Positions 3,798-34,564 of a stretch of DNA of 64,000 nucleotides are shown here, in pieces. A program made the position numbers and the translations under genes. The notes beneath the pieces are model-generated. The model saw nothing but the letters and a program-made list of their open reading frames with translations, did no database searches and was not told the origin of the DNA. Location of the stretch: NCBI GenBank assembly GCA_000333855.2, contig CM007348.1:530093-594092 (forward strand). Reading direction: 5' to 3'. Position 1 is the stretch's first letter; every line of letters starts with the position of its first letter. This DNA is from Endotrypanum monterogeii. Its lineage: Eukaryota; Euglenozoa; Kinetoplastea; Trypanosomatida; Trypanosomatidae.

Positions 3798-6700
3798 TCA
3801 CAAAACGGGAAACGGAAAATCACTATCGCACTTCTCTCGTGGTGAGAACATCTTCGACACTTTCTGAAAAGCGGCGGTGCGCTGCAGGCGCCGCTGGTAA
3901 CGTAGGCGCTCCCCGCTTGTTTTCATGTCATCGAGCCGATCGGGGCTGAATATGGCGGCCTGATTGTTGAAGTAGTCAAGACGTCGTCGCGGCAACCGAC
4001 GCTGCGGCCATCTATTGAACTTTGATCCGTCGTTGGAGTCGCCCGCCTCCTCGTCTGGGTTTCCCAGAACGATTTTGTTGTAGCCGAGGAGAAGGTGCTG
4101 GTTATGGCTCTGGTGGATGCCAGCACGGACGAGACGGAGTGGAAGCATGCGACCGAGCTTCACCAGGCGCATGTAGCAGTACATTCGGCGCTGCGGTAAA
4201 TAGTAGAGATATCGCGGGCAAACTTGTCCTGAGTAGCCGCCGACTGAATCTTGTGCAGCGTCAATTGAGATCTGCTCCCGCTGGCGGTACCACGATGCAA
4301 GGGGAGCATGAGCCCTCGCAGATGAAGACATGGTTGTGGTGCCCATGTTACGAGGCAGTGAATCGAAAGAATATCCGTCCATGAGAATGTTTGAGTCGGC
4401 GTAATGCGGCAGCCACCCGTGTACACGGCCCACCCGGCGATCCAACAAGTATATCAGTTTGTGAAGGTGAACGACGCGCTGGCGCTCTACAGACCATGCA
4501 GCAGCCATGGTGCGCTGCATAAAGCGTTGTTTGAGGTACGCGAGGCGCTCTCGGCGCTTCGCATCTGCGGCGTTCCGCTTAGTCTTCCACATCTGCTTCA
4601 TCTTCTGGATAATGGCTCGAAGCAAAACCTGCGCCTTGAGTTGCTCGTGTAGAATTCGCTCCACCTCGGTCACCGCGTCTCCTGTGAACAACGCGCCATC
4701 CTCCCCGTCCCCGAGATTGACACTGGACCTCAGAAAAGTGTGGGTGTCACGTCGCGGCCCAGCTGTCGCGGGCTGCAATGACGACGAAAAGGCAAACTGT
4801 TCATCGATCGTGACATCTGCACCGCGGAAGGTCGACCGTCTTCCTTCGAAGTGGTAGCACGGAATCGAGGACGCCACGCCGTGCGACGGCAACGGCGATA
4901 AGCCGGCGCTGTCGCCAGGGTGCGCCTGCCAGTGCTGCAGACCCCCTTCACCACGGTTGTCGCGCCCCCTCTCATACTCTGCCAATGTTTGAAGCTGCGG
5001 CAGACTTTCGTGAGTCGCAAGAGAAGCACCCATGGATTTCCCTTGTGCGAAAGAAACGTCGCCGGAAGCAAAAGGAGTGAGATGCATCTCATCTGCACTG
5101 CCTGCACCCGGGGAGTGCCCATGACGCAACGGTGGCAGAGAGCCGCTCTGTGAAACGTCGTTTGCTGGCGTACCAGCCATCCCCTTATAACCCGACGAGA
5201 GTGATGTATCGCGCCCACAGCCCTGCTGCAATGTGCTGGCAGCCTGATTCATCAGCTCGGATATCACTGTGTCAAACCGCTCAGGGTCCATCATGAAGAG
5301 CTCACGAGCATCCTCCTGCAACTCACTCAGCTCGGTCAAGAGCGCACCCCCCGCCGCTGGTGTTGAGTGTCGCGCCCCTGCCTGACCAGAGAGGCCACCT
5401 CCCACCATCATACTAGACCGAAGCTCGTCCTTTACAGACTCAAGGAAATTCTTCACGTGTGATACGGTCTCGACGTCAACAGCGATGGCTGCTGCAGCTC
5501 CTGCTGTAGGAAGCACGGAATTCTCTGCATTTATGAGTAGCGGCAGCGAAGTAGTAGAGCTTTCTCCGGCGCTCTGATTGGAGCCCAGACCTCCCCGTGG
5601 ACCGACTGCTTGATGCCCGGTGCGCTTCTCGAGGGTGCCTTTGGCAGGCCGCACACCCGCTTTGTTGCGAAGCGAAGGACCAAGGGAGCTTGCAGCGGCT
5701 TGCTGAGGAAGCAATATATACGGCTTTCTGCAACCCGGAGTCCCTTTCACCACCATCACCGGTGGCGGAGCGAGCGACGTCGCATCTTCCTTGCCGTTAT
5801 CCTGCTCGAATTGTGCCGAGGAGACGGATGGCTCCCCCGTGGTACCAGCCTTGACTGCTGATGAGGTAATGGCAGCTCCTCGCTTCAGCGGTTTCTTACT
5901 AGCCTCCCTGCGTGAAGGTAGCGACTGATTGGCGGACATTTTCAGCGAGGATGTAGATGGTGCATCAGCCGCAGCGTCGCCCGAATGCCCAGGGCGAGCG
6001 GGGCCACCGCTGTACTCAGCCGCTTCCCCACCGTGAGGAGGTTGCGAGCTCGAGGTGGTGTAAAAAGGGGACTGTGTCATAGCAGACTTAGCAGTTGACT
6101 CCCGTGCTCGCCTGAAGCGCGCGAGCATCTTGGACTTCGACTCCTTTATCGTGAATTCGCCTAAAGAACCTTGCATGACGAAGGATTTCCTGCCACCTCC
6201 AGATTGATCCTGTTGCTGCGACAGCGCGGAAGATAAGGGGCGGCCCTCAGAATCAGTCTCGGGGAAGAGCGATGCGCCATGCGCAGCTGCCTCATCACTG
6301 CCGATGAAAGAACTCTTACTGCCATCTTTCCCAATGGAGACTGCAGGCCAGCGTTGCGAGTAGCCTGTCCCCATTTCGTCCTCGCCCGCCAGCCCTCCAG
6401 GGCCCGTCATGCCTTCCTTGCCCAGAGCCTCCCCTTCGCCGTCGTCACCCATCATCGCCTGGGAAGCAATCTCCTCCGCTATGGCATTCGCCACCAAGGA
6501 AGCACCAGAGCCGGGGGCCATCAGACCAGTCATCATCCCCCTGCCCCCATCCTCGTGACTGCCAAATCCCATCGTCCCTGGTGATTGCTGCCCCTCCGCC
6601 AAGCCGCCTATTTTGCTGTCAGGGATGACTGCGAGCAGCTTCTCTACCGCAGACAAACCACCCCCGTCGTGTCCACCCTGCACACCCGCAGACAATGCCG

Positions 6701-9700
6701 CTGTCTCAGCGGCGTAGCCTTCCCCGGCTTGCAAAACCGCCAGCACAACCGCATTCTTCTCCAGTGCCTCCATATCCTCACGCGCATGTGGTACCCCCCA
6801 CTCACCGATGGGGCGCGGCACTGAAGAAAGGGGCGGCGTATGAGGAAGCCGTCCTGAGTGCCTCTGTAGCCCCTCGTCTGCCTTCGATCGGGCGTCCGGT
6901 GAATAAAGCGATGCTTGCGCCTTTAGATTCACTGCCTTCTCGTCCTCAGTGACCGCCCTTGAAGTCGGCGATGCCGCATCTGTTAATTCGCCGCCATGGT
7001 CACCGAAGTCCCTCGACACAGAGCCCCGCAGTCTCGCAGAATCACTGGACCCCCTCTTCTCCCCACCCCTCTTCGCTTTCGATGCACCTCGGCCAGCACG
7101 CGCCTTATCACCCTTCGCACCTTTCTTTCCCTTTGAAGATCGAGCTGGGTGACTGTCCAGCGACGATCCGTGCACAGTTTCCTTGAGACCAAGACCGCCT
7201 AGAGGAAACTCTAGAAGACTAGGAAGCGGTGGATCCGCATCCCATCCTTCGCGCCAAGACTGCTGGTCCTGCTGCATCTGCTGCATCTCCTGGTCCTGCT
7301 TCGGCCTCGTCGCAGCACTACCGGTAACGCCATCAGCACTGAAGCTGAATGCCTCATCATATGAAACACCCTTGCCGGGCTTAGCGGGTGTAAGCGTCAT
7401 CAACAGCCGAGGTGGAGCCCCGGGGGCGACGCTCACCTTCATGACCCTCCCACTCGAATCATCCTTCACTGATACTCCAGACCCTGAGGAGATAGTCAGG
7501 TTTCTCAGTCGGTGTGAGGCAACAGTCACGGCGGCCACAGTGCGGATCGAAGAAGCGGTAGTGGGGCGGCTGGTGAGACTTCCAGGATCTGTGGATGGAG
7601 GAGGACTATCTGAAAGAGGTCGCTCCACGCGAAGTACGTAGTGGTGGAAGCTGTTGGACTCGCCATCCTCACTGAGAACTGCGCTGCGGTGAGTCTCGTT
7701 GAGCTGCGTCGTGACAGCGCCGGCGCCCGCCTCCGCAGCAGCAGCAGTGGCACCGCGAGCACTATTCGAGCTGCCCGCCACACAGTCGGCCTCGCTCAAA
7801 TGAACACCAACAATGGTGAAAACAAGCCCCGTGCCTGGGAGGATCTCACGCAGCAACTCCGTCTCCAGCTGCGCTGCAACCGGCTGCTGCACAGCCGGCC
7901 TCCGTGGGGTTGGCGATTCAAGCCGAGTCGGGACCTCCGAGGGTTTTTTGTCAGCACGGACCGATGACTCCCGTGGGACTGGGATTCCCTCTGAGAGAGA
8001 GTCCTCACTCTCATCGTCGAGATCTGGTCGGATGGGGCCGGTGAGGCTGCCTAGTTTATTTTGTCTAGTCCTGCGACCATCGACATTTTTTTGGCGCATC
8101 TGCAGCGCCATCGCTTTCGCCTCCGCCTCGCGCCGCTCAGCCTCCTCGCGCGCGCGCTGAATTGCCTCGAGCTGACGACGATGCTCGGCTAGCTTCTCTT
8201 CCATCTCCGCCGCGTACTCCGCATCACCCTTGGTGGCACCTTTGCTGATTTCACGCCGGCGGGCCTCGATAAGCTGCACATAATTGTGCAACATGCAGAG
8301 CTCATAGAGGTCATGAAGCAATCCAGGACGCAGGTTGCGCAACTCAGCACCAAGCAGCGATTTTCCTTGACTGGCAGTTGTGCTAGGGGTACCCCCTCTA
8401 CACCACCTTGGGTCCGAAGAAGCAGCACCAAGTCGGCCCGGAATGTTGCCTGTACCAAAGGACTGCATAGTATCAGAGCTGCCAGGGATTACGCCTGAGA
8501 AGGTCAGCGAGGTCCGTCGCGCCCCTGACATGCTTCCAGCAGCACTACGACGATCCCGCTCATCTGCCGTGGTCATCCCACTAGCCTCTAGTAAGGAGCC
8601 ATTGTAGCTTCGCGTGGCGGTATCTGTTTCACTGCGCTCCACATGACCATGACCCGCCAGCTGAGACGCTGGTGAGTAGTCGCGCTTCACCGTCGGCGCG
8701 GACACTGGTCTTCCCTTCCTTAGCTCTTCCGGGTGTACCCGCTCCAGATGATACTGGGCAAGCATCTCCGACATGAATTTGAGTAAGTTAAGTCCAGAAG
8801 CTGGATCAGTGGACTGGGACGACACAAGAGGTATACCCTTACTGTTGCTAGACGTCAGATGCCCTTGCTGCCGGGGAGCGACGGCAGTCGACGTCGCGGT
8901 GGCCGAAAAGGGCTCAGAAACATTGCCGTCATGAGGAGAATCACTGAGCGTGAACGGCACCATGCTTGGGTCGCAGATGGTTGTCGTCAGAGAAAGGCGG
9001 TGGAGCGCGTGGGGGTCGAGCCCTGCCCTTTTAAAATCTGATGTTGCCGTGGTAGTGGAAGTGAACAAAGGAGACGAGGGGAAGTTCGGCGCATCTTTGA
9101 CGCTGGACTGGTGAAGTGCAAAACCCGCAGGTGAGCTAGCAGGCAGATCACCCACTGTCAGCAGACTTTGGCGGTGCGCCTCCCCCCCAACCTCAGTCGC
9201 CGTATCAAGTGACCGAGTCTCACACTCGTCCGTTGGCTGAGGCTGCTGAAAGTCTGTGAGAAGCTCCTCGCCCACGCTTTCCAGGAGCCACTCCATGCGC
9301 ATAATGTTAGATGATGCCTCCAGGATGTCTGCCCTTCTCCATCTCGCCTGCTGCACTCGTTGCCGAACTGATGGACGTGAAGGAGACGCTGACTCAGGAG
9401 CTCGAGTCTTCGGTGCAGGGGACTTCTCCTGCGAGTCTGCCGCTTCCAAATCGTACAACTCCTCCTCGAGCACCGTCTCCATCAAGCCCAGACCGCTGTC
9501 GAGCTCCCCCACGAGTTGATGTAGGTGTGTTGTGTCGAAGTCAGTGCCGCAGTTGCGAAAGAAATCTTTTCTTTTTGTCTCCAGCTGGAGGCGTATGCTC
9601 TCCAAGTCGGGCAGGGATGCCAAAGTCGTTCGGCCTGGGGAACGTCGAGTACGTTTGCCACTTTTTGAAGATCTTTTCGTACCCCCGCGGTTCGCCGAGC

Positions 9701-10727
9701 CTGAGGTAGACCTTGACATCTGATGCAGCCCCTCCTGCTGCGCCTTCTCCTTCGCAGCCTCGGCGACTTCGACCATGTCTATAATGTCAGACTCCACGTT
9801 CGAGTGGCGCCCCACCAACAAAATCATTTTTGTGTGCTCCTCCCCCAGCACCTCCATGAAACGCTCCTTTTCGCCCCGAAGCTCCCGGTGGGGCGGCACA
9901 GCGGCCGCCATCACAGCCGCTGCCTCGGCAAGCAACGCGTCTGCATTCGCTGTAGCGATAGAGCCGACCGTCACCTTCTTTACGTGACGGCGTGCCGACG
10001 GAGAAACGACGCTTTGGCTGCCTCTTTCACTGTTCTCGAGGGTCGCGACGGAGTCGCCGGAGATGCTGCTGCCTGAGCCGCTCGTCGAACGGGACGTGAG
10101 AGGGTTGCTGTGGAACATGTGAGTAGTGGCTCCCCTCCCTGCAATGCTGCCGGAGCGACCGTCAAGTCCTCCCGTCCTCTTGTCGCGCACATTCGATTGA
10201 GCCCCAGCACACGCACCGCTGCTCTTCTGCATTCGGTGGTTGGCCGAAGCCGAAGACGTCCGCTTCCCGTCCCCGCGGGTATCAGGCAAATCAGCAATGA
10301 TGGAGGTGCGGATCGGATTTGGAGAGAGAACGTGATGAGCTCGAGATTCAACACGCATAATGGACTCCTTAGGGATCCCTTTTTGATCTTCCCCGTTCGT
10401 CGAGTCATCACTGGTTAGCTCATCGGAGTCATCCAGGTTGTTATTGAGTGAGCTTCGAATGAACACGTTGCCCAGACGATGCAAGTAGCGGGATGCTATC
10501 ACCTCCTCAGGGTACGCCAACTGTGGCAACCGGCGCCGCGACGGTGGAGGTGGAATGAGCGAAGACTTTGAGAAAGCGGAACTGGGTATCGAAGATGGTA
10601 TCCCAGGCGTGGATCGAGCGGCTGCGCTGGTAGTGCACTCTGAGTTTGCAAAGGAGACAGCTTTCGCGTCGGGTGCTGGAGGCGTTGCCGCACCCGCGGA
10701 TGCTCTGTTGTTACTGCTTGGATGCAT
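3798..10727 (-). CDS. Very large hypothetical protein (2309 aa)
   Basis: I do not recognise a family. The frame is open for 6.9 kb and begins at an ATG. Most of the protein is low complexity, rich in Ser, Gly, Ala and Pro, and probably disordered. Islands of likely structure are a helical, charged stretch at about 275-330; a helical segment near 370-430; a helix around 800-830 leading into a Glu/Arg/Ala-rich coiled coil at about 835-880; and a strongly basic helical C-terminal block at about 2020-2110, followed by Tyr/Arg-rich sequence to the end. Glycine-rich, Met-containing repeats lie around 1400-1500. No membrane segment or signal peptide is evident. A scaffold or cytoskeletal role would fit coiled coil plus basic tail, but this is a guess. 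The gene follows the Mdm12-like gene in the same transcription unit. Confidence 0.85.
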   Translation of the reverse strand: MHPSSNNRASAGAATPPAPDAKAVSFANSECTTSAAARSTPGIPSSIPSSAFSKSSLIPPPPSRRRLPQLAYPEEVIASRYLHRLGNVFIRSSLNNNLDDSDELTSDDSTNGEDQKGIPKESIMRVESRAHHVLSPNPIRTSIIADLPDTRGDGKRTSSASANHRMQKSSGACAGAQSNVRDKRTGGLDGRSGSIAGRGATTHMFHSNPLTSRSTSGSGSSISGDSVATLENSERGSQSVVSPSARRHVKKVTVGSIATANADALLAEAAAVMAAAVPPHRELRGEKERFMEVLGEEHTKMILLVGRHSNVESDIIDMVEVAEAAKEKAQQEGLHQMSRSTSGSANRGGTKRSSKSGKRTRRSPGRTTLASLPDLESIRLQLETKRKDFFRNCGTDFDTTHLHQLVGELDSGLGLMETVLEEELYDLEAADSQEKSPAPKTRAPESASPSRPSVRQRVQQARWRRADILEASSNIMRMEWLLESVGEELLTDFQQPQPTDECETRSLDTATEVGGEAHRQSLLTVGDLPASSPAGFALHQSSVKDAPNFPSSPLFTSTTTATSDFKRAGLDPHALHRLSLTTTICDPSMVPFTLSDSPHDGNVSEPFSATATSTAVAPRQQGHLTSSNSKGIPLVSSQSTDPASGLNLLKFMSEMLAQYHLERVHPEELRKGRPVSAPTVKRDYSPASQLAGHGHVERSETDTATRSYNGSLLEASGMTTADERDRRSAAGSMSGARRTSLTFSGVIPGSSDTMQSFGTGNIPGRLGAASSDPRWCRGGTPSTTASQGKSLLGAELRNLRPGLLHDLYELCMLHNYVQLIEARRREISKGATKGDAEYAAEMEEKLAEHRRQLEAIQRAREEAERREAEAKAMALQMRQKNVDGRRTRQNKLGSLTGPIRPDLDDESEDSLSEGIPVPRESSVRADKKPSEVPTRLESPTPRRPAVQQPVAAQLETELLREILPGTGLVFTIVGVHLSEADCVAGSSNSARGATAAAAEAGAGAVTTQLNETHRSAVLSEDGESNSFHHYVLRVERPLSDSPPPSTDPGSLTSRPTTASSIRTVAAVTVASHRLRNLTISSGSGVSVKDDSSGRVMKVSVAPGAPPRLLMTLTPAKPGKGVSYDEAFSFSADGVTGSAATRPKQDQEMQQMQQDQQSWREGWDADPPLPSLLEFPLGGLGLKETVHGSSLDSHPARSSKGKKGAKGDKARAGRGASKAKRGGEKRGSSDSARLRGSVSRDFGDHGGELTDAASPTSRAVTEDEKAVNLKAQASLYSPDARSKADEGLQRHSGRLPHTPPLSSVPRPIGEWGVPHAREDMEALEKNAVVLAVLQAGEGYAAETAALSAGVQGGHDGGGLSAVEKLLAVIPDSKIGGLAEGQQSPGTMGFGSHEDGGRGMMTGLMAPGSGASLVANAIAEEIASQAMMGDDGEGEALGKEGMTGPGGLAGEDEMGTGYSQRWPAVSIGKDGSKSSFIGSDEAAAHGASLFPETDSEGRPLSSALSQQQDQSGGGRKSFVMQGSLGEFTIKESKSKMLARFRRARESTAKSAMTQSPFYTTSSSQPPHGGEAAEYSGGPARPGHSGDAAADAPSTSSLKMSANQSLPSRREASKKPLKRGAAITSSAVKAGTTGEPSVSSAQFEQDNGKEDATSLAPPPVMVVKGTPGCRKPYILLPQQAAASSLGPSLRNKAGVRPAKGTLEKRTGHQAVGPRGGLGSNQSAGESSTTSLPLLINAENSVLPTAGAAAAIAVDVETVSHVKNFLESVKDELRSSMMVGGGLSGQAGARHSTPAAGGALLTELSELQEDARELFMMDPERFDTVISELMNQAASTLQQGCGRDTSLSSGYKGMAGTPANDVSQSGSLPPLRHGHSPGAGSADEMHLTPFASGDVSFAQGKSMGASLATHESLPQLQTLAEYERGRDNRGEGGLQHWQAHPGDSAGLSPLPSHGVASSIPCYHFEGRRSTFRGADVTIDEQFAFSSSLQPATAGPRRDTHTFLRSSVNLGDGEDGALFTGDAVTEVERILHEQLKAQVLLRAIIQKMKQMWKTKRNAADAKRRERLAYLKQRFMQRTMAAAWSVERQRVVHLHKLIYLLDRRVGRVHGWLPHYADSNILMDGYSFDSLPRNMGTTTMSSSARAHAPLASWYRQREQISIDAAQDSVGGYSGQVCPRYLYYLPQRRMYCYMRLVKLGRMLPLRLVRAGIHQSHNQHLLLGYNKIVLGNPDEEAGDSNDGSKFNRWPQRRLPRRRLDYFNNQAAIFSPDRLDDMKTSGERLRYQRRLQRTAAFQKVSKMFSPREKCDSDFPFPVL

Positions 10728-11675: not shown

Positions 11676-13613
11676 TCAGGAGTCGCCTCCGCCAAAGGAT
11701 ATCGGTATACAAACCGAGTGTGGGGCAACAAGCGTTTCACGCAAGATGGCACGCAGCTCGTGTAGCACAAACTGCGACACCTCGTGTTCGTTCACATACA
11801 CGCCGTTGCCTTCCTCTGCGCCTTCGTTGTCTGACACGCTGCTGCTTCCAAAGCGGGAATAGAAATCTGCGGAGGAGGTACCGTAATCGCCGGTGCCACT
11901 ATTTTTTCTGCCACCATCCAAATCCGAGCCGCACTCGGCATCGTCCCCGCCAATGGTGGCGATGATGCTTAGCCGATTGACGATAAACGGTGATAGTAGA
12001 CCCGGCTCCAGCCACACCTCACACATGTTCTCTTTCATGTTAACGCAAACGAAGCAGTCGAGGTCAAGGTTGGCCAGGTAGAATGTCATAGGCAGACTAA
12101 GACGCAGTGCAACAGCGCCGAGTCGAATTTCGTGCTGTACCGCAACGTTGAGCGACAAATGCATCGCGCCCCCATATGTCATGTGAAAGCGCACGTGAAG
12201 GCCACCCGGACCCAGCACAGAAGCTAGTGTGTCCACCGAGTCCGGTGGAGAGGAATATTGCGATTGCGAGGGAAGAGATACCGGATTGCGAGGAGGCATA
12301 TCTGCTCGACCACTAGCACTGGCGCCGCAGACGCTGGCAGCATCGAAGAGCGAATGAGTCCCACCAAACAGATGTGGCGTGTTGGACTCAGTGTATACGC
12401 GGGAAGCTAGCCCGTGAGAACCTTCGCTGAAGCTGTCCGCCATGGCGCTGAGACCTGCGGCAAGATCCACAGCAGCGGTAGAGGAATTGAGAGTGTCCAT
12501 GGATGTGGTGTGGCTTACAGAGTACGGGGAGTTACCGCGAGCCTCGACACCAGTGCCATGTCCGTCCCTACCACCAGAGAGCAGAGCTCCCCTGCTCGGA
12601 TGTTGCTGCCGAGAACGCTGGCGTGTGCGACCAGGCGGACCGTCAATCGCGTTCTCAAAGCCCACGATTTCTACGAATGGTGGCGATGTGCCCCAATCGA
12701 TTCGCCCCACCTCCAAGTACACAATCGGCGGTATTTTGCTCGCGCCCCCCGATGCTGCCGCGCCCGCGCACGCTGGTATGCCACCGCCAGCTGCGGAAGT
12801 AGGGCCGGCGGATGAAGTAGCCGTGGTAGAGCCCCCTGGATCAAAACCCGGTGACGACTGACCAAGGACCGCTCGCTGCGTAGCGGAAGGGGTCACAGAA
12901 ATGGGCTCACTGGCGAAGACATTGCCTGCTGAGGGGCCGCCACTACCGGCACTAGCATTCGTTTCGGACACAGCCAGCGTTGCACCTATGTTGTGATGGC
13001 TACAATTGTGCTGCGAAGTTGCGCAACCGAGGACTGGTGCTGATATAGAGCCGCCTGTGCCAGCGACGTTGCTACCACCAGACCCAACCGGACCACCCAC
13101 ACTCCCGGTGGGAGGAATCGCTGCCGCAGACGCTGGCGTCGCAGAGGAGAATCCTGAAATAGCAGCACTGCTGTTGGACGTCTGCATATAAGAAGAGTGC
13201 AGTGGTGCAGTACTCGTCATTGTGGAGTGGGTAAACAAATTCGGGATCGACTCGGGGCAAAAATGTGTGGCGTGATGGACCACATTTCCTGGAATAGTGG
13301 TGATACCAGACGCAATCTCCTGCCGTGAAACGATGCCGCTGGCGTGGAGTGATGTCTCAGCCTTTTCCGCCCCGGCACCATGAGAGCCGACTGAGACAGA
13401 GAGAGCAGCCCCGGCGACGCTGGGACCAATGATGGGCATGACTGCAGTCGCCTTTGCGCCTGCGGCAGCTGGGCCCGCTGTGCTGCTGTCTGATGGGGCC
13501 GCGTTTCGGTTGTTGATGCGATCAACAACCTCTGCAAGGCGACTGTTGATGAGATGTCGCAGCGCCTCTGCACAAGTCTCATCCAGCCTTCCCCAATCGA
13601 AATGCAGAGACAT
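11676..13613 (-). CDS. Mdm12-like SMP-domain protein
   Basis: Probable lipid-transfer protein of the SMP (TULIP-type) family, closest in pattern to Mdm12, the cytosolic subunit of the ER-mitochondria encounter structure. Four separated blocks match the order of Mdm12. Residues 1-37 begin MSLHFDWGRLDE and continue with an amphipathic helix. Residues about 293-322 contain YLEVGRIDWGTSPPFVEIVG, like the LG..PP.I.I strand. Residues about 472-556 carry the strand-rich body, including LPMTFYLANLDLDCFV. Residues about 608-640 hold a final helix ending in SVCIPISF. Between them are Ser/Ala/Gly-rich insertions of roughly 250 and 145 residues and a shorter acidic one near 557-605, so the 645-residue protein is longer than typical fungal homologues. 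There is no membrane segment, as expected for Mdm12 rather than Mmm1. Family call is by remembered motif pattern only; another SMP protein is the main alternative. Confidence 0.7.
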   Translation of the reverse strand: MSLHFDWGRLDETCAEALRHLINSRLAEVVDRINNRNAAPSDSSTAGPAAAGAKATAVMPIIGPSVAGAALSVSVGSHGAGAEKAETSLHASGIVSRQEIASGITTIPGNVVHHATHFCPESIPNLFTHSTMTSTAPLHSSYMQTSNSSAAISGFSSATPASAAAIPPTGSVGGPVGSGGSNVAGTGGSISAPVLGCATSQHNCSHHNIGATLAVSETNASAGSGGPSAGNVFASEPISVTPSATQRAVLGQSSPGFDPGGSTTATSSAGPTSAAGGGIPACAGAAASGGASKIPPIVYLEVGRIDWGTSPPFVEIVGFENAIDGPPGRTRQRSRQQHPSRGALLSGGRDGHGTGVEARGNSPYSVSHTTSMDTLNSSTAAVDLAAGLSAMADSFSEGSHGLASRVYTESNTPHLFGGTHSLFDAASVCGASASGRADMPPRNPVSLPSQSQYSSPPDSVDTLASVLGPGGLHVRFHMTYGGAMHLSLNVAVQHEIRLGAVALRLSLPMTFYLANLDLDCFVCVNMKENMCEVWLEPGLLSPFIVNRLSIIATIGGDDAECGSDLDGGRKNSGTGDYGTSSADFYSRFGSSSVSDNEGAEEGNGVYVNEHEVSQFVLHELRAILRETLVAPHSVCIPISFGGGDS

Positions 13614-13921: not shown

Positions 13922-13972
<51 letters not shown>
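13922..13972. repeat. (TA)n microsatellite
   Basis: About 21 TA units followed by GTATATA. Located upstream of the Mdm12-like gene's splice tract. Confidence 0.95.
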
Positions 13973-14961: not shown

Positions 14962-17937
14962 CTATGGGTAAGTGAAAGGCTCAGGAACGGGAGCCTCGTC
15001 ACGGTCCGACAGCACCACGGGCGCCACCAGCGTGTGTGCGCCCATCTCTGGCTTTGTGTCCCTCAGAAGGCAGATTCCCATCGGATCTGGCTTTAGCGGC
15101 ATATATCGACCGTCGGCGTCATGCGTGATGACTGCAAACTGGTGCGCCGTCACACGCGCAGGATTGTGTAGGAGCTCAAACGAGGGCTCCTGCACCGAGT
15201 CCCCGCCATCCCCAGCGTTGCCGCTACCGTTACCGCCCTTTTTGCTGCCCTCACCAGTAGACCTGCCATCGCTGCCGGACGCCCCAGCGGCGGAGGTGAT
15301 GGCAGCGGCTCCTGGGCCTGCAGACCCTTGGTGACGACGCTGCCGCAGCTCTTCCTCCTTGCGCGTTGTGGACAGCACGACCGCCTGGACCCCTGACGAC
15401 CTAACTTTCTTCTCCTGAAGCACCGACTTGGGTACTGCGTATGTGCTGGGAGGAGCATTTGACTTGAACGTGTACTCGGGCAGCTCCAGCGACTCGTTCA
15501 GCGCGATGATGCAGGTGGGCTGCATGGCCAAATCGATCATGAGGAGGTACGGGTACCAGTACCAGTACTGTAGAAACATGAAGACCCCCACGACAGCCTT
15601 GTCGAGGCGGTGGCGCTGCTTGTGCATGGCGAAGGTGCAGTTGCGGCCACCTGCATCGAGCAGACCGGTTGCAAGAATGAAGCCGATCTTAGAACAACGA
15701 CTTTCGTTGCGGTCTTCAATCTTCTTTTCCAGCAAGATCCTGAAGTCCTTCACCTTCGGGTTTTCCTTTTCTGTGAGCTGCACCATGACCATGGAAAGCG
15801 CTATGGCAGCACCCTGGCGCACGTAATCCACGATATCTTCCAGCATCTCCCACAGCACATCAATGACGGCGGCGTTGCCAGTGCCAGCTGCGCTCACCGC
15901 CAGCGCCATCGCGATACCGTAACGGACATGCGGGCTGTAGCTGTCAACAAGCGCGCGAATCAAATCGAGACACAGGTTCGGATCTTTGAAGGTCAAAAAA
16001 CCAATCATGGTGATGGCGGTGCGGCGAACATCATCAGACATATCCTTCACTGTAATGCTGAGCAGCTTCTCGATCGTCTTGGCGTTCTCAGTGCCAGCGT
16101 ACGCCAAACCAAGCACAAAGCAGCCGCCCAGGCGCACCCACGAATCGCCGCTCTCGAGCAACTCTTCCGCCAGCTGGAGTGCCTCATCTTCGCGCCCAAG
16201 GTTGATGAACGCCATCGCCATACACACACCACGAATAATCTTCTCCTTCTGGTTCTCCTCGTATGCTACATTTTTGAGGCTCTGCAGTATCATCTCGTTT
16301 CCGCTTCCGAGCATCAACATGCCAACGCCCACCGCCGCCCCTTCAGCCGCCACAGCGTCCATGCCCGTTACACACGTGAAAAGGAGGTCGTAGAGATTCT
16401 CATCCTGCATCCCCATTGCGGTGAGGCCGATGCCGAGGGAGGCGCCGTGAACCATCTGAACATTTGTAGAGAACTTCTGCAAGTTGTCCTCCAGATACTG
16501 AATCGTTTTTCGGTCACGAGTGGAGCCGAGCGGGGAGTAGATGAGGCCAAGGGCGTACAGTGAGCCCGCCTCTTGGTACGGCAGCGTTGGCACGCTTGCG
16601 CCTTTGGGTAAGTATTGCTCCAGCACCCGCATCGCTTCCTCTGTGTGTCCCCGGTGAATCGCACCAATGCTCGCGACAGCGGTGAACTTGGCCCAGTGCT
16701 GCGCGGAGCCGAGCCACTTCATGTTGTCGCGGAGAAAACCGTCCATGGTGGTGCCGCAGTACATGAAAGCGTTTGCCACCACTGTCGCGTTGTGCACCAC
16801 GGCGTTGCGCGGGTCCGTCATCTTTTTGATGTGAGTCAGCACATACACATCAGCGACACAACGGGAGTAGAGAAACTTAACATTCAGGCTCGTAGTCACC
16901 TGGCCACTGAGGACAGACAACAGCTTCTGCTCTGGAGAATCCTGGAGCGTTGTAGCAGTCGGCGCGCCTGAAGTAGTGTCAGTGGCTGTGACGGTAGAAG
17001 GAGAGGTTGCGGTGGCGGACGGGGCCCCCACCTCCCCAGAGGCGTGGCCGGCACTTGCGCCAGAACTCGCCGCCAGCGCCGCTTCAGATACGCCCAACTG
17101 CTTCTCCAAATGGGCAATCACACCGGAGAGATACTCCTGGTTGCCGTGCTCGAAGAGGTCAAAGGCTAGCTGAAAGGCAACCGTTCTGTTGTCTCCCTTC
17201 CACAGGCCAGAAATAAGGCTCGACGTCGCCTCCACATCACCGAGGAACAGCAGGCAGTGAGCCAAGGAGTAGAAGTCGACGGTGGACAGGCCGTCTGTGT
17301 ACAGGTCCGCCAGGAGACGGAGGACCTTGCGACGGAATGTGATGTCCTGCAGCAGCACATTCGCCACGTAGAAGGTGAAGTTGAGAATCTCAGCCGAGTG
17401 TGTTTTGCACAACGCCTGGCGCAAAACCCTCTCCAGAAAATCCAGCCGGAGCGCACGCACGGTGAAGCCGACCATCTCCTTTAGGTCCGCCAGGGTCTCG
17501 TTCTCTACAACCCACGACTTGGTCAATGACACAAACAGCTCTTCCAGCTTTGGCGGCAGCGCCTCCCGCTCGTCCACCGGAGTCTCCTGGTACGCGACGT
17601 AGGTATCAATACATCGACTCAAAATCGTGTCTGTGAACAGAGACCGTGTTGTCGCGTCAAAGGCAGTGCCGGCCGCCAAAGCGTGCTTCACCGAGTTGCT
17701 GTAATCACCCAAGTGAAAATAAACCTGCGACGCGACGAGGGACGCGAGGCGGCGCGTCTCATCCGCAAGCTTCTCAGAGACTGCCAGCTCCTCGATAAGC
17801 AGAAGCTCAGCACTCACCTCGTGCCAGAACGTGTCCATCAAGGAGGAGAGCCGCTTCAGTGCGAAAAGAATAACAAGGTTATCCTGTTCGCTCAAGAGCG
17901 CCAAGACGGCCTTTGCCGAGGATAATCCCTGCACCAT
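14962..17937 (-). CDS. RPN2: 26S proteasome regulatory subunit RPN2 (PSMD1)
   Basis: Non-ATPase scaffold of the 19S proteasome base, which anchors ubiquitin-receptor and ATPase subunits. The 991-residue length fits the family. The N-terminal helical region starts MVQGLSSAKAVLALLSEQ. The proteasome/cyclosome repeats occupy about 400-780 and show repeated GxA/ALG..Y.G signatures. A Gly/Ser/Ala-rich linker sits near 880-910. The C-terminal beta domain keeps FELLHNPARV, and the last residues end PVPEPFTYP, matching the PEPFxY tail that binds RPN13 in other eukaryotes. A short insertion rich in Thr/Ala interrupts residues about 280-340. The frame is open 44 codons upstream, but without an ATG; the first ATG after the splice tract is at 17937, directly after an A-run. 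Identification is very firm. Confidence 0.96.
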   Translation of the reverse strand: MVQGLSSAKAVLALLSEQDNLVILFALKRLSSLMDTFWHEVSAELLLIEELAVSEKLADETRRLASLVASQVYFHLGDYSNSVKHALAAGTAFDATTRSLFTDTILSRCIDTYVAYQETPVDEREALPPKLEELFVSLTKSWVVENETLADLKEMVGFTVRALRLDFLERVLRQALCKTHSAEILNFTFYVANVLLQDITFRRKVLRLLADLYTDGLSTVDFYSLAHCLLFLGDVEATSSLISGLWKGDNRTVAFQLAFDLFEHGNQEYLSGVIAHLEKQLGVSEAALAASSGASAGHASGEVGAPSATATSPSTVTATDTTSGAPTATTLQDSPEQKLLSVLSGQVTTSLNVKFLYSRCVADVYVLTHIKKMTDPRNAVVHNATVVANAFMYCGTTMDGFLRDNMKWLGSAQHWAKFTAVASIGAIHRGHTEEAMRVLEQYLPKGASVPTLPYQEAGSLYALGLIYSPLGSTRDRKTIQYLEDNLQKFSTNVQMVHGASLGIGLTAMGMQDENLYDLLFTCVTGMDAVAAEGAAVGVGMLMLGSGNEMILQSLKNVAYEENQKEKIIRGVCMAMAFINLGREDEALQLAEELLESGDSWVRLGGCFVLGLAYAGTENAKTIEKLLSITVKDMSDDVRRTAITMIGFLTFKDPNLCLDLIRALVDSYSPHVRYGIAMALAVSAAGTGNAAVIDVLWEMLEDIVDYVRQGAAIALSMVMVQLTEKENPKVKDFRILLEKKIEDRNESRCSKIGFILATGLLDAGGRNCTFAMHKQRHRLDKAVVGVFMFLQYWYWYPYLLMIDLAMQPTCIIALNESLELPEYTFKSNAPPSTYAVPKSVLQEKKVRSSGVQAVVLSTTRKEEELRQRRHQGSAGPGAAAITSAAGASGSDGRSTGEGSKKGGNGSGNAGDGGDSVQEPSFELLHNPARVTAHQFAVITHDADGRYMPLKPDPMGICLLRDTKPEMGAHTLVAPVVLSDRDEAPVPEPFTYP

Positions 17938-18198
17938 TTTTTTTTTTTTGCCCTTCCACTGGTGTGTCTGTGCTTGTGTCTGTGTGTGCCGGTACCCTGT
18001 ACAGCTTCTGGGTATGACTGGGGTTAGTTGGGAGTGTAGGTAATGTGTTGTTGTCGCCACAAGTTTCAAAGGCGAAGGAAGGGAAGTTACGCAATGTCAC
18101 ACGAGCACACGTACACAAGGTAAAACAAAGGATACCAATACACCTCCAACGCGGCGGGCGCGCAATTCACCCGAAATTGGAGGCAGATGAGCGTGTGT

Positions 18199-18961: not shown

Positions 18962-20719
18962 TCAGCACACGCGGTCGAAGCGTGCAACGAAAAATCCGTT
19001 CGTCGCATCGGCCGTCGGATCGCAGCGGATGGTGAAGCGCAACGGGTGTTCCTCGTTCGCTTTTTCTAAGCCACGAGTCTTCCAGGTATCGGGCATAATG
19101 TTGCTCAGCTGCCATCCACGCGCCTTCACTCGCTCGTCGCTCAGCACCTGCCGCACAACTTCCTCGTTCTCCTCCTCGTGCACAGAGCAGGTGGAGTACA
19201 CAACAGTGCGGCAGTTTTCAAAAGAAAGCAGCGAGTGCGCCAGGAACTTGCGCTGCAGTCGCGCCAACTTCCCCACCCGCTCCTCCCTCATGGAAAATTC
19301 ATTGCCTTGTGTCTCGGGGTTGATGGCACCATTAGGGCCTACCTCTTCCTCCTCTCCGCCCGCCGCCTTCTCGCCCGCATCCTCAGAATCACCACCACCA
19401 CCACGAGACACGTGGCGAGGAGAAGAGACTCTCTCGGTCTGTTGAACCTTCCCTTCTCCCTCCTGATGCTTTTGGCCAGAGTGGTGGTGTTGCAGCGCCA
19501 CGTCAACGCGGGTCATGACCCCGCTTGCACTGCAGCTAGGGTCCAGCAGGATCCCCTCGGTCGCGATGCGGTCCTCGGAGGAGAGCTGGAAAAAATCCAT
19601 GTTGACAACGTTCACGTAATCAGCCGCGCCGAGGGACGTCACGCGCTTCAAGAGCAACTCGGCACGCCGCTCATCACGCTCGGTGGCCATAATTTTTACA
19701 TGTGGTGCACCCAGCGCCGCGAGCTGCGTCGTTTTGTTGCCCGGCGCTGCGCACGCGTCGACCACATACTCCAGTGGCTTGCGTACCGCCACTGCTGATG
19801 TCCCTTTGTCCTTCAGCCCCTTTGCCGGTGATTCACTAATATGCTTCTTCTTCTTCCCACCATTGCTGATGTTGCTGCTTCCCCCGCCGGCACCACCAAC
19901 CTCGACGGGTACGGCGTCGAGCAGCACCGCCGCAGGAAGACAGGAAGCGCGATCTTGAAGAATGAGCTGTCCACTGCGCACCGCCGGGTGGGCGTGCAAA
20001 TCTGTGCCTGGTGGGAAAACAAGAAGATCGGGCACAATAGGATCCTGCGTGAACTCGGGCAACGGACGATGGGGTCGAGAGGAGGCACGATGTGTGGCAC
20101 GCTTATCACCGTCTTTCTTTGGCGGTTGAGGCGTGGCAGCAGCATCCCCGTCATCAGCCTCAGTGTCACGAGCGCGCTTTCGAGCCTCTGCAGAGCGGCG
20201 CAACCGGCTCACAAGCTCCTCCACTGAGATTTTCAGAGTGTTGACGCGAGCGTACCGCGGCATCTGTAGAGCGCTGGATGAAGATGCGCCATCACCGCAA
20301 CACTTCTCCCCTCCGCTGCCGCTGGGTGTTTCAACGGTAGCCTCCTCCTCGAATTTATCATGATTACGCGGTGGGATGATGTGGTGCTTATGCACCTGCC
20401 AGTAGGCCTCACGAAGGTAGGAGGCAGACTGCGTCACAGCACGTGCGGTGCTGTCGTTGTGGGTATTCACCCCCTTGCCGAGCACCACATCGTAGGCCAT
20501 GCACATCGCAAAATCATGGTTCGCATGTGGGAAGTACTTGAAAAAATCGGCCACCTCCAAAACATCTTTGAGAAGCTCGTAGTGACGCAGCGTTTCGCAG
20601 ACGACAGCGTAGGTCTGCTTCTTTTTTTGTATTTCCTTTCGCAGGCACAGCGCCTTGGCCGTCCCGTTACCCTCGCGCACAATGCTGATAATTTCAGCTG
20701 CTTGGCGATACACGTCCAT
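18962..20719 (-). CDS. NSUN5: NSUN5/Rcm1-type rRNA m5C methyltransferase
   Basis: SAM-dependent RNA cytosine-5 methyltransferase of the NOL1/NOP2/Sun family. NSUN5 (yeast Rcm1) methylates a single cytosine in the large-subunit rRNA, so a nucleolar role in ribosome assembly is expected. The 585-residue protein keeps the NSUN5-type N-terminus (helical, with KKKQTYAVVCETLRHYELL and VLGKG). It also keeps the SAM motif VVDACAAPGNKTTQLAAL near 320, the DPSCSASG motif with Cys396, and YSTCSVHEEENEEVV with Cys511. The two cysteines are the product-release and nucleophile residues of the family. Insertions rich in charged and Gly/Ser residues lie at about 130-215, 265-300 and 410-460, the last between the two catalytic cysteines. 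The assignment to NSUN5 rather than NOP2 or NSUN2 rests on the N-terminal region. Confidence 0.92.
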   Translation of the reverse strand: MDVYRQAAEIISIVREGNGTAKALCLRKEIQKKKQTYAVVCETLRHYELLKDVLEVADFFKYFPHANHDFAMCMAYDVVLGKGVNTHNDSTARAVTQSASYLREAYWQVHKHHIIPPRNHDKFEEEATVETPSGSGGEKCCGDGASSSSALQMPRYARVNTLKISVEELVSRLRRSAEARKRARDTEADDGDAAATPQPPKKDGDKRATHRASSRPHRPLPEFTQDPIVPDLLVFPPGTDLHAHPAVRSGQLILQDRASCLPAAVLLDAVPVEVGGAGGGSSNISNGGKKKKHISESPAKGLKDKGTSAVAVRKPLEYVVDACAAPGNKTTQLAALGAPHVKIMATERDERRAELLLKRVTSLGAADYVNVVNMDFFQLSSEDRIATEGILLDPSCSASGVMTRVDVALQHHHSGQKHQEGEGKVQQTERVSSPRHVSRGGGGDSEDAGEKAAGGEEEEVGPNGAINPETQGNEFSMREERVGKLARLQRKFLAHSLLSFENCRTVVYSTCSVHEEENEEVVRQVLSDERVKARGWQLSNIMPDTWKTRGLEKANEEHPLRFTIRCDPTADATNGFFVARFDRVC

Positions 20720-33319: not shown

Positions 33320-34564
33320 CTATCCGGGGTGGTACAGCGGCTTCGCCATCTGCGGCTGCCATGCCACCGAGCCCCCACCCGTGTTTGGATTCGAGCTGCC
33401 TCTGGTTTGCACACCCGCTCCAAGAACGGGGGCGGAACCAAACAGGGAAAGAATCTCATCCTTGGCACTTCCACTGCTGCCGGCGCTTGGACTCCCCTGG
33501 AAACCCATAAACAAATTATCAGTGTTACTAGGCCCTGTCGATGGACTAGACAAGGAATGCGACTTGTTCGGCAACGGCGCCTTGTCGTACATGCCGCCAC
33601 CTAAGGGGCTGCACGCATTGGATGCTGCCTCACCGAGCTGCGTCCTCGCCCAAGCCCAGTTCTCCTTTGAGCCCACTGGTGATACCGACGACGGCGACGC
33701 CAAAGCACTTCCCCAGGCAGTAGGCAATGGGGAAGCGGTACCACCGACCGCTGGAGAGCTCACGCTGTTGTCATGACGCCGATAAGCACCAGAGAAAAGC
33801 TCCTCAACGTTTGTGAAGGCGGCTGTAGTACTCTGCGTCGTCTCCTTGCTTGACGACACTGTCGTGGTTGAAGAAACAGGTGGCCCCCAGAGCTCCACGA
33901 GGACGTTGTGCTGGTGCGGCGGCTCCACGGGCGTGTCCGCTTGGCGCGGTGAAGAAATCAACCGGGGCGATGGCGCTGAAGCTTCGACCACGGTGGCGCA
34001 CACGCCCTCATTTGGGGACTCCATAAACTTTTTGAAAAGTTCGGTGAAGCGGGGGTGAAAGTATTGCCTCCGCTCATACTTCCCGCGAATGGCTCGCTCC
34101 ACAACGGCGGTGTCGGTGGTGGCGGCGACACGTGCAGAAGGTGGCATATTATACTCGTATAAGAGTCGTCCTCGTGTGTTGCCAACATGCTCCATCACGA
34201 ATAGCATCGAATCTGGCCAGGCGTCCATGCTAACCGACTTCACCTTGGATATGTGCGTGCCCATAGAGCGATGGATGCCAGCGCAGCGAAGGCAGAAAAA
34301 AATACCAAGATTTGTGCTTGCCCATCGTGGTTGTTTCGCACCGCAATCGAAACACTCACGATTATCCTGACGACGCAATAAAACATCAAAGCGTTGCTGT
34401 TGCGGCGGCGAGACACCTGCGCTTGGCGTCACCGTGTTGGTGGTGCGCTTTGTCACGAAACCAGCGTCTACATTTTCAGAAACACCACTACTATTGCGCG
34501 CACAGTATGTGTCCCCGCGCCGCGCACCCGGCTCGTAGCGGTCTTGGTAGAACTGGTTTGGCAT
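33320..34564 (-). CDS. ArfGAP-domain protein
   Basis: Putative GTPase-activating protein for Arf-family GTPases, acting in vesicle coat and membrane traffic. The 414-residue protein has the ArfGAP zinc finger with Cys71, Cys74, Cys91 and Cys94 in CxxC-x16-CxxC spacing, followed by AGIHRSMGTHISKVKSV, which carries the catalytic arginine. The domain runs to about residue 180, ending with a KYERRQYFHP-type helix. The N-terminal 60 residues and the whole C-terminal half (about 200-414) are Ser/Thr/Pro/Gly-rich and look disordered. They could hold short clathrin or adaptor motifs; I see LFSG- and LFMGF-type hydrophobic patches. The domain resembles the SMAP/AGFG type more than the ARAP or ASAP types, since no PH, ankyrin or SH3 region is visible. 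Subtype is uncertain. Confidence 0.92.
   Translation of the reverse strand: MPNQFYQDRYEPGARRGDTYCARNSSGVSENVDAGFVTKRTTNTVTPSAGVSPPQQQRFDVLLRRQDNRECFDCGAKQPRWASTNLGIFFCLRCAGIHRSMGTHISKVKSVSMDAWPDSMLFVMEHVGNTRGRLLYEYNMPPSARVAATTDTAVVERAIRGKYERRQYFHPRFTELFKKFMESPNEGVCATVVEASAPSPRLISSPRQADTPVEPPHQHNVLVELWGPPVSSTTTVSSSKETTQSTTAAFTNVEELFSGAYRRHDNSVSSPAVGGTASPLPTAWGSALASPSSVSPVGSKENWAWARTQLGEAASNACSPLGGGMYDKAPLPNKSHSLSSPSTGPSNTDNLFMGFQGSPSAGSSGSAKDEILSLFGSAPVLGAGVQTRGSSNPNTGGGSVAWQPQMAKPLYHPG

Follow-up and report, generated by a model that had tools for sequence, protein, structure and literature searches.

In a 64,000-nucleotide stretch of the Endotrypanum monterogeii genome (contig CM007348.1, positions 530,093 to 594,092 of the forward strand; hereafter the window), translation of a minus-strand open reading frame (ORF) running from an ATG at 13613 to a stop codon at 11676 gives a protein of 645 residues, which is best explained as a soluble Mdm12-type SMP protein with a folded domain broken by three loops and a role in lipid transfer between the endoplasmic reticulum (ER) and the mitochondrion. 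We put the probability of this reading as a whole at roughly 0.7. That the product is an SMP protein of the Mdm12 type, possibly of a common Mdm12/Mdm34 kind, is highly probable, and that it acts at ER-mitochondria contacts has about an even chance. Fungal Mdm12 holds a phospholipid in the hydrophobic channel of its SMP domain, and such domains join end to end and bridge the ER to the mitochondrial outer membrane; Mdm12 and Mdm34 are soluble, unlike Mmm1. The gene is an ordinary one that has been overlooked.

Conserved blocks and variable inserts

The four separated blocks described in the initial annotation lie where it placed them to within some ten residues, in agreement with a 16-row alignment and its conservation (Table 1). 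The FDWGRLDE, LPMTFYLANLDLDC and final helix segments that it named are all present in the translation; the strand that it gave as of LG-x-x-PP type exists as a strand motif with the letters WGTSPPFVEI, and its two long Ser/Gly/Ala insertions are accompanied by a third (residues 561-600) that it did not mention. Conservation, taken as mean majority-residue identity in the alignment of this protein and 15 of its 16 relatives (P0011, a gene model without the N-terminal block, was left out), is 0.87-0.91 in the blocks versus 0.43-0.62 in the inserts; on this alignment the blocks are therefore strongly constrained and the inserts much less so. Because Met1 and the block order are common to all 16 rows (P0013 has an extension ahead of Met1) and the blocks are far better conserved than the inserts, the block pattern, as aligned, is not a product of chance. 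Ser, Gly, Ala, Thr and Pro make up 67%, 54% and 53% of inserts 1, 2 and 3, and the three loops that interrupt the lipid-binding domain are probably disordered. The highest 19-residue mean hydropathy (KD19) is at most 1.7 in all 19 proteins, a hydropathy measure by which none has a transmembrane segment; since no stretch of this length exceeds that value, the Mdm12-type protein looks soluble.

Table 1. Blocks and inserts of the Mdm12-type protein, with positions in the window
Feature	Position	Strand	Description
Block 1, residues 1-37	13503..13613	-	MSxxxxW start; helix 1 predicted at 12-36; conservation 0.91; in-place Mdm12 match
Insert 1, residues 38-291	12741..13502	-	Ser/Gly/Ala-rich, variable; conservation 0.43; predicted without structure, predicted local distance difference test (pLDDT) ~30 in most
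Block 2, residues 292-328	12630..12740	-	PPIVYLEVGRIDWGTSPPFVEIV strand pair; conservation 0.90; predicted strands 297-302 and 313-317; block match to Mdm12
Insert 2, residues 329-460	12234..12629	-	Located where fungal Mdm12 has its long variable loop; conservation 0.59
Block 3, residues 461-560	11934..12233	-	Main beta sheet of the SMP-like domain; conservation 0.87; predicted strands
Insert 3, residues 561-600	11814..11933	-	Ser/Gly/Asp-rich loop of 40 residues; conservation 0.62
Block 4, residues 601-640	11694..11813	-	Predicted C-terminal helix 609-624 and last strand; conservation 0.88; most Mdm12-specific block
C-terminal tail, residues 641-645, and stop codon	11676..11693	-	Translation

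Insert 2 occupies the same place as residues 74-114 of ScMdm12, which are missing from the crystal construct 5gyk, and as a loop of about 145 residues in an Aspergillus-type Mdm12 that matches the Mdm12s in PDB. As the loops of both proteins sit at its place, insert 2 is, in terms of alignment, a known Mdm12 habit. A variable loop between the strand pair and the main sheet, a feature not necessarily unique to Mdm12, is present here in the form of this insert. Among the aligned Mdm12s there is no counterpart to insert 1, which separates helix 1 from the strand pair.

Affinity to Mdm12

When joined, the blocks resemble the solved Mdm12s above chance: none of 287 control segments (mutually dependent, since they overlap; cut from 9 or 13 of the window's ORFs and each given M as its first residue) and none of 200 shuffles reaches the Mdm12 scores. 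In an hmmsearch test each target came with 400 shuffles and one reversal as decoys, the denominators being the decoys that hmmsearch listed; the real score was reached by 0/211 for ScMdm12, 0/229 for KlMdm12, 2/302 for Mdm34, and 23/229 and 143/235 for the Mmm1s. When blocks 1, 2 and 4 are fixed in position, the first and last blocks match three Mdm12s in place. We relied on this position-held test in preference to a free alignment of the blocks, in which block 4 of this protein landed at a wrong site in the K. lactis Mdm12 and, for three of the four representatives, block 1 aligned to the C-terminal end of filamentous Mdm34. In a Foldseek search with the full-length model ranks 1-14 are all Mdm12, at E-values that are not significant, and the predicted models, poor in quality, have the order of helix, sheet and C-terminal helix expected for SMP. 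The likeness to Mdm12 claimed in the initial annotation also agrees with an independent public label: UniProt names 10 of 18 relatives, L. donovani P0009 included, 'SMP-LTD domain-containing protein', a name that rests on a profile other than those applied here.

Fungal Mdm12 of ERMES, the ER-mitochondria encounter structure (PDB 5gyd, 5h5a, 5yk7), shares with the trypanosomatid protein the MSxxxxW start, helix, strand pair, long variable loop, beta body and C-terminal helix; it is soluble with one SMP domain, as the trypanosomatid protein probably is, and gives the best alignment among the proteins compared. The two differ in length (271 versus 645 residues), the trypanosomatid protein carrying two inserts more, one of 254 residues that parts helix 1 from the strand pair and one of 40 residues just ahead of the last helix, and its similarity falls below library significance. 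Mmm1, the ER-anchored ERMES subunit, is alike in its SMP domain; identity with it was rejected on a near-background score and the lack of an anchor. T. brucei E-Syt is another SMP protein of kinetoplastids, with transmembrane motifs and two C2 domains (PMC8093936), whereas neither a C2 match in Pfam nor a transmembrane segment by hydropathy was found here, and identity with E-Syt was rejected on these grounds.

Rival readings

Several results weigh against the assignment to Mdm12. Pfam finds no SMP family in the protein, in eight joined-block sequences, or in P0018 and P0019 (yeast Mdm12 does match PF10296); NCBIfam has no match for the protein or P0019; and searches of PDB by phmmer and with profiles A1 and A2 yielded nothing apart from one match, at E 1.9, to an Ala-rich segment in a ribosomal protein. 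The joined blocks had been expected to match SMP/TULIP profiles, and the outcome named beforehand as refuting the idea is the one that Pfam and PDB gave, with these sequences below the thresholds of both. Alignment by hhalign to a two-sequence Mdm12 alignment reached 8.5% for A2 and 6.1% for A1, below significance, and VIA-align neither set Mdm12 apart from Hsp70 substrate domains nor, for model 2, placed any Mdm12 among its best 50 rows. In the literature, L. donovani is said to lack SMP homologues (PMC10341546, 2023), and none were retrieved in Diplonema (PMC12699882). We judge the failures at library thresholds to be outweighed by the more sensitive tests. They bear out the expectation that the gene would be hard to find by ordinary searches, and a suggested reason why domain libraries miss such genes is that the domain is in four pieces, though the joined pieces also stay below thresholds. 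The subthreshold library and hhalign results, together with the poor structure models, would also suit a chance similarity, in which the blocks are those of an unrelated beta-alpha protein; this is already disfavored, and very improbable, given the empty counts among control segments and shuffles at Mdm12 scores, the in-place matches of the first and last blocks to three Mdm12s, the independent SMP label and the exclusively Mdm12 top ranks in Foldseek.

Among the sequences compared the closest to the trypanosomatid protein is Mdm12, clearly so with respect to Mmm1 and tentatively with respect to Mdm34, where mainly block 4 sets the two apart. Mdm34/Mmm2, the mitochondrial-side SMP subunit of ERMES, has a start of the same type and a PP-containing strand block, but the C-terminal helix block of the trypanosomatid protein is without a match there, and we consider orthology to Mdm34/Mmm2 in place of Mdm12 improbable. 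A soluble SMP protein of some other contact site (e.g. ER-plasma membrane or acidocalcisome), re-used from an ERMES subunit, is unlikely but deserves more weight, as a footnote in PMC6871780 has the T. brucei homologues forming no complex and taking no part in ER-mitochondrion contacts, and E-Syt shows a trypanosome SMP domain at another contact (PMC8093936). Against it may be set the lack of a C2 match and of a transmembrane anchor, unlike in E-Syt, and the closest similarity to Mdm12, none of which bears directly on location.

Relatives and genomic setting

The best relative, from Porcisia hertigi, is 85% identical over residues 465-645 and 67% over the whole alignment, and Leishmania, Novymonas and Leptomonas supply the other named relatives. 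The sole relative found beyond this close cluster, P0019 (721 residues), begins MSFRFNW, has longer inserts and shows 46% identity to residues 455-645 of the E. monterogeii protein. Two database searches aimed at Trypanosoma and other kinetoplastids returned the Leishmania-type cluster and P0019 alone; because they need shared 5-residue words and limit length, and one scored the best 7995 candidates by shared words, absence from Trypanosoma is not thereby shown. The public gene models P0018 (L. major, 315 residues) and P0011 (L. mexicana, 466 residues) are without the N-terminal helix block, and may be truncated annotations that hide the domain further.

Searches of the E. monterogeii genome (30.7 Mb, 44 contigs) with the protein itself and with P0019 matched this locus alone. 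An assembly artifact was ruled out, since other genomes have the same reading frame with the same blocks. No candidate partners were found in this genome with MMM1 (PF10296), SMP_LBD (PF17047) and Mdm34 and Mmm1 sequences, Mdm10 not being searched for with its own model; a control search for ArfGAP gave five matches. As searches for porin and Miro likewise came up empty, these negatives carry little weight, and the genome search seems too blunt.

The same-strand neighbors at 14962-18069 (proteasome RPN2), 18962-20719 (an NSUN5-like RNA methyltransferase) and 33320-34564 (an ArfGAP) are housekeeping genes with no apparent functional tie to lipid transfer. Two minus-strand ORFs near the gene, 1130-2707 (525 residues) and 3798-10727 (2309 residues), are without a Pfam match at E 0.001. 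The spaces between the large ORFs contain AT and TG dinucleotide tracts, one of them (13922-13972) about 300 bases upstream of the Mdm12-type gene.

Biological implications

By analogy with the fungal proteins, the curved sheet and C-terminal helix of the Mdm12-type protein would form a half-open hydrophobic channel holding a phospholipid; by docking end to end with a second SMP protein, it would allow lipids to be passed between the ER and the cell's single mitochondrion. It is conceivable, if distinctly doubtful, that Leishmania-group trypanosomatids keep a working Mdm12-centered ER-mitochondrion lipid bridge in which, unlike in fungi, three inserts totalling about 425 residues of disordered, fast-evolving loop regulate, cluster or tether the bridge. 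If true, this would contradict published claims that SMP/ERMES components are absent or form no complex.

The premise that kinetoplastids are described as without SMP subunits is not supported by the literature, E-Syt (PMC8093936) being one counterexample. T. brucei has proposed orthologues of Mmm2 and Mdm12, which have received no detailed study (PMC6027259, citing Wideman 2013), and a table in PMC6871780 credits ERMES to Leishmania and T. brucei, the column assignment being our reading of a flattened table. ERMES is also reported from Trypanosoma with a role likely unlike that in yeast (PMC9586877). Our literature search, which did not reach the 2013 survey itself, found no publication naming this gene as Mdm12. 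Novelty is thus limited, because the UniProt SMP-LTD label and the ERMES reviews precede this work and proteins of the kind were already known; the added value is the assignment of the gene family to Mdm12.

This assignment argues against the statement in PMC10341546 on SMP-domain proteins in L. donovani, which looks wrong. The ER-mitochondria contact proteins of trypanosomes are stated to be unknown in PMC8630539, and having an Mdm12-type gene named in the Leishmania group offers a concrete handle on this contact.
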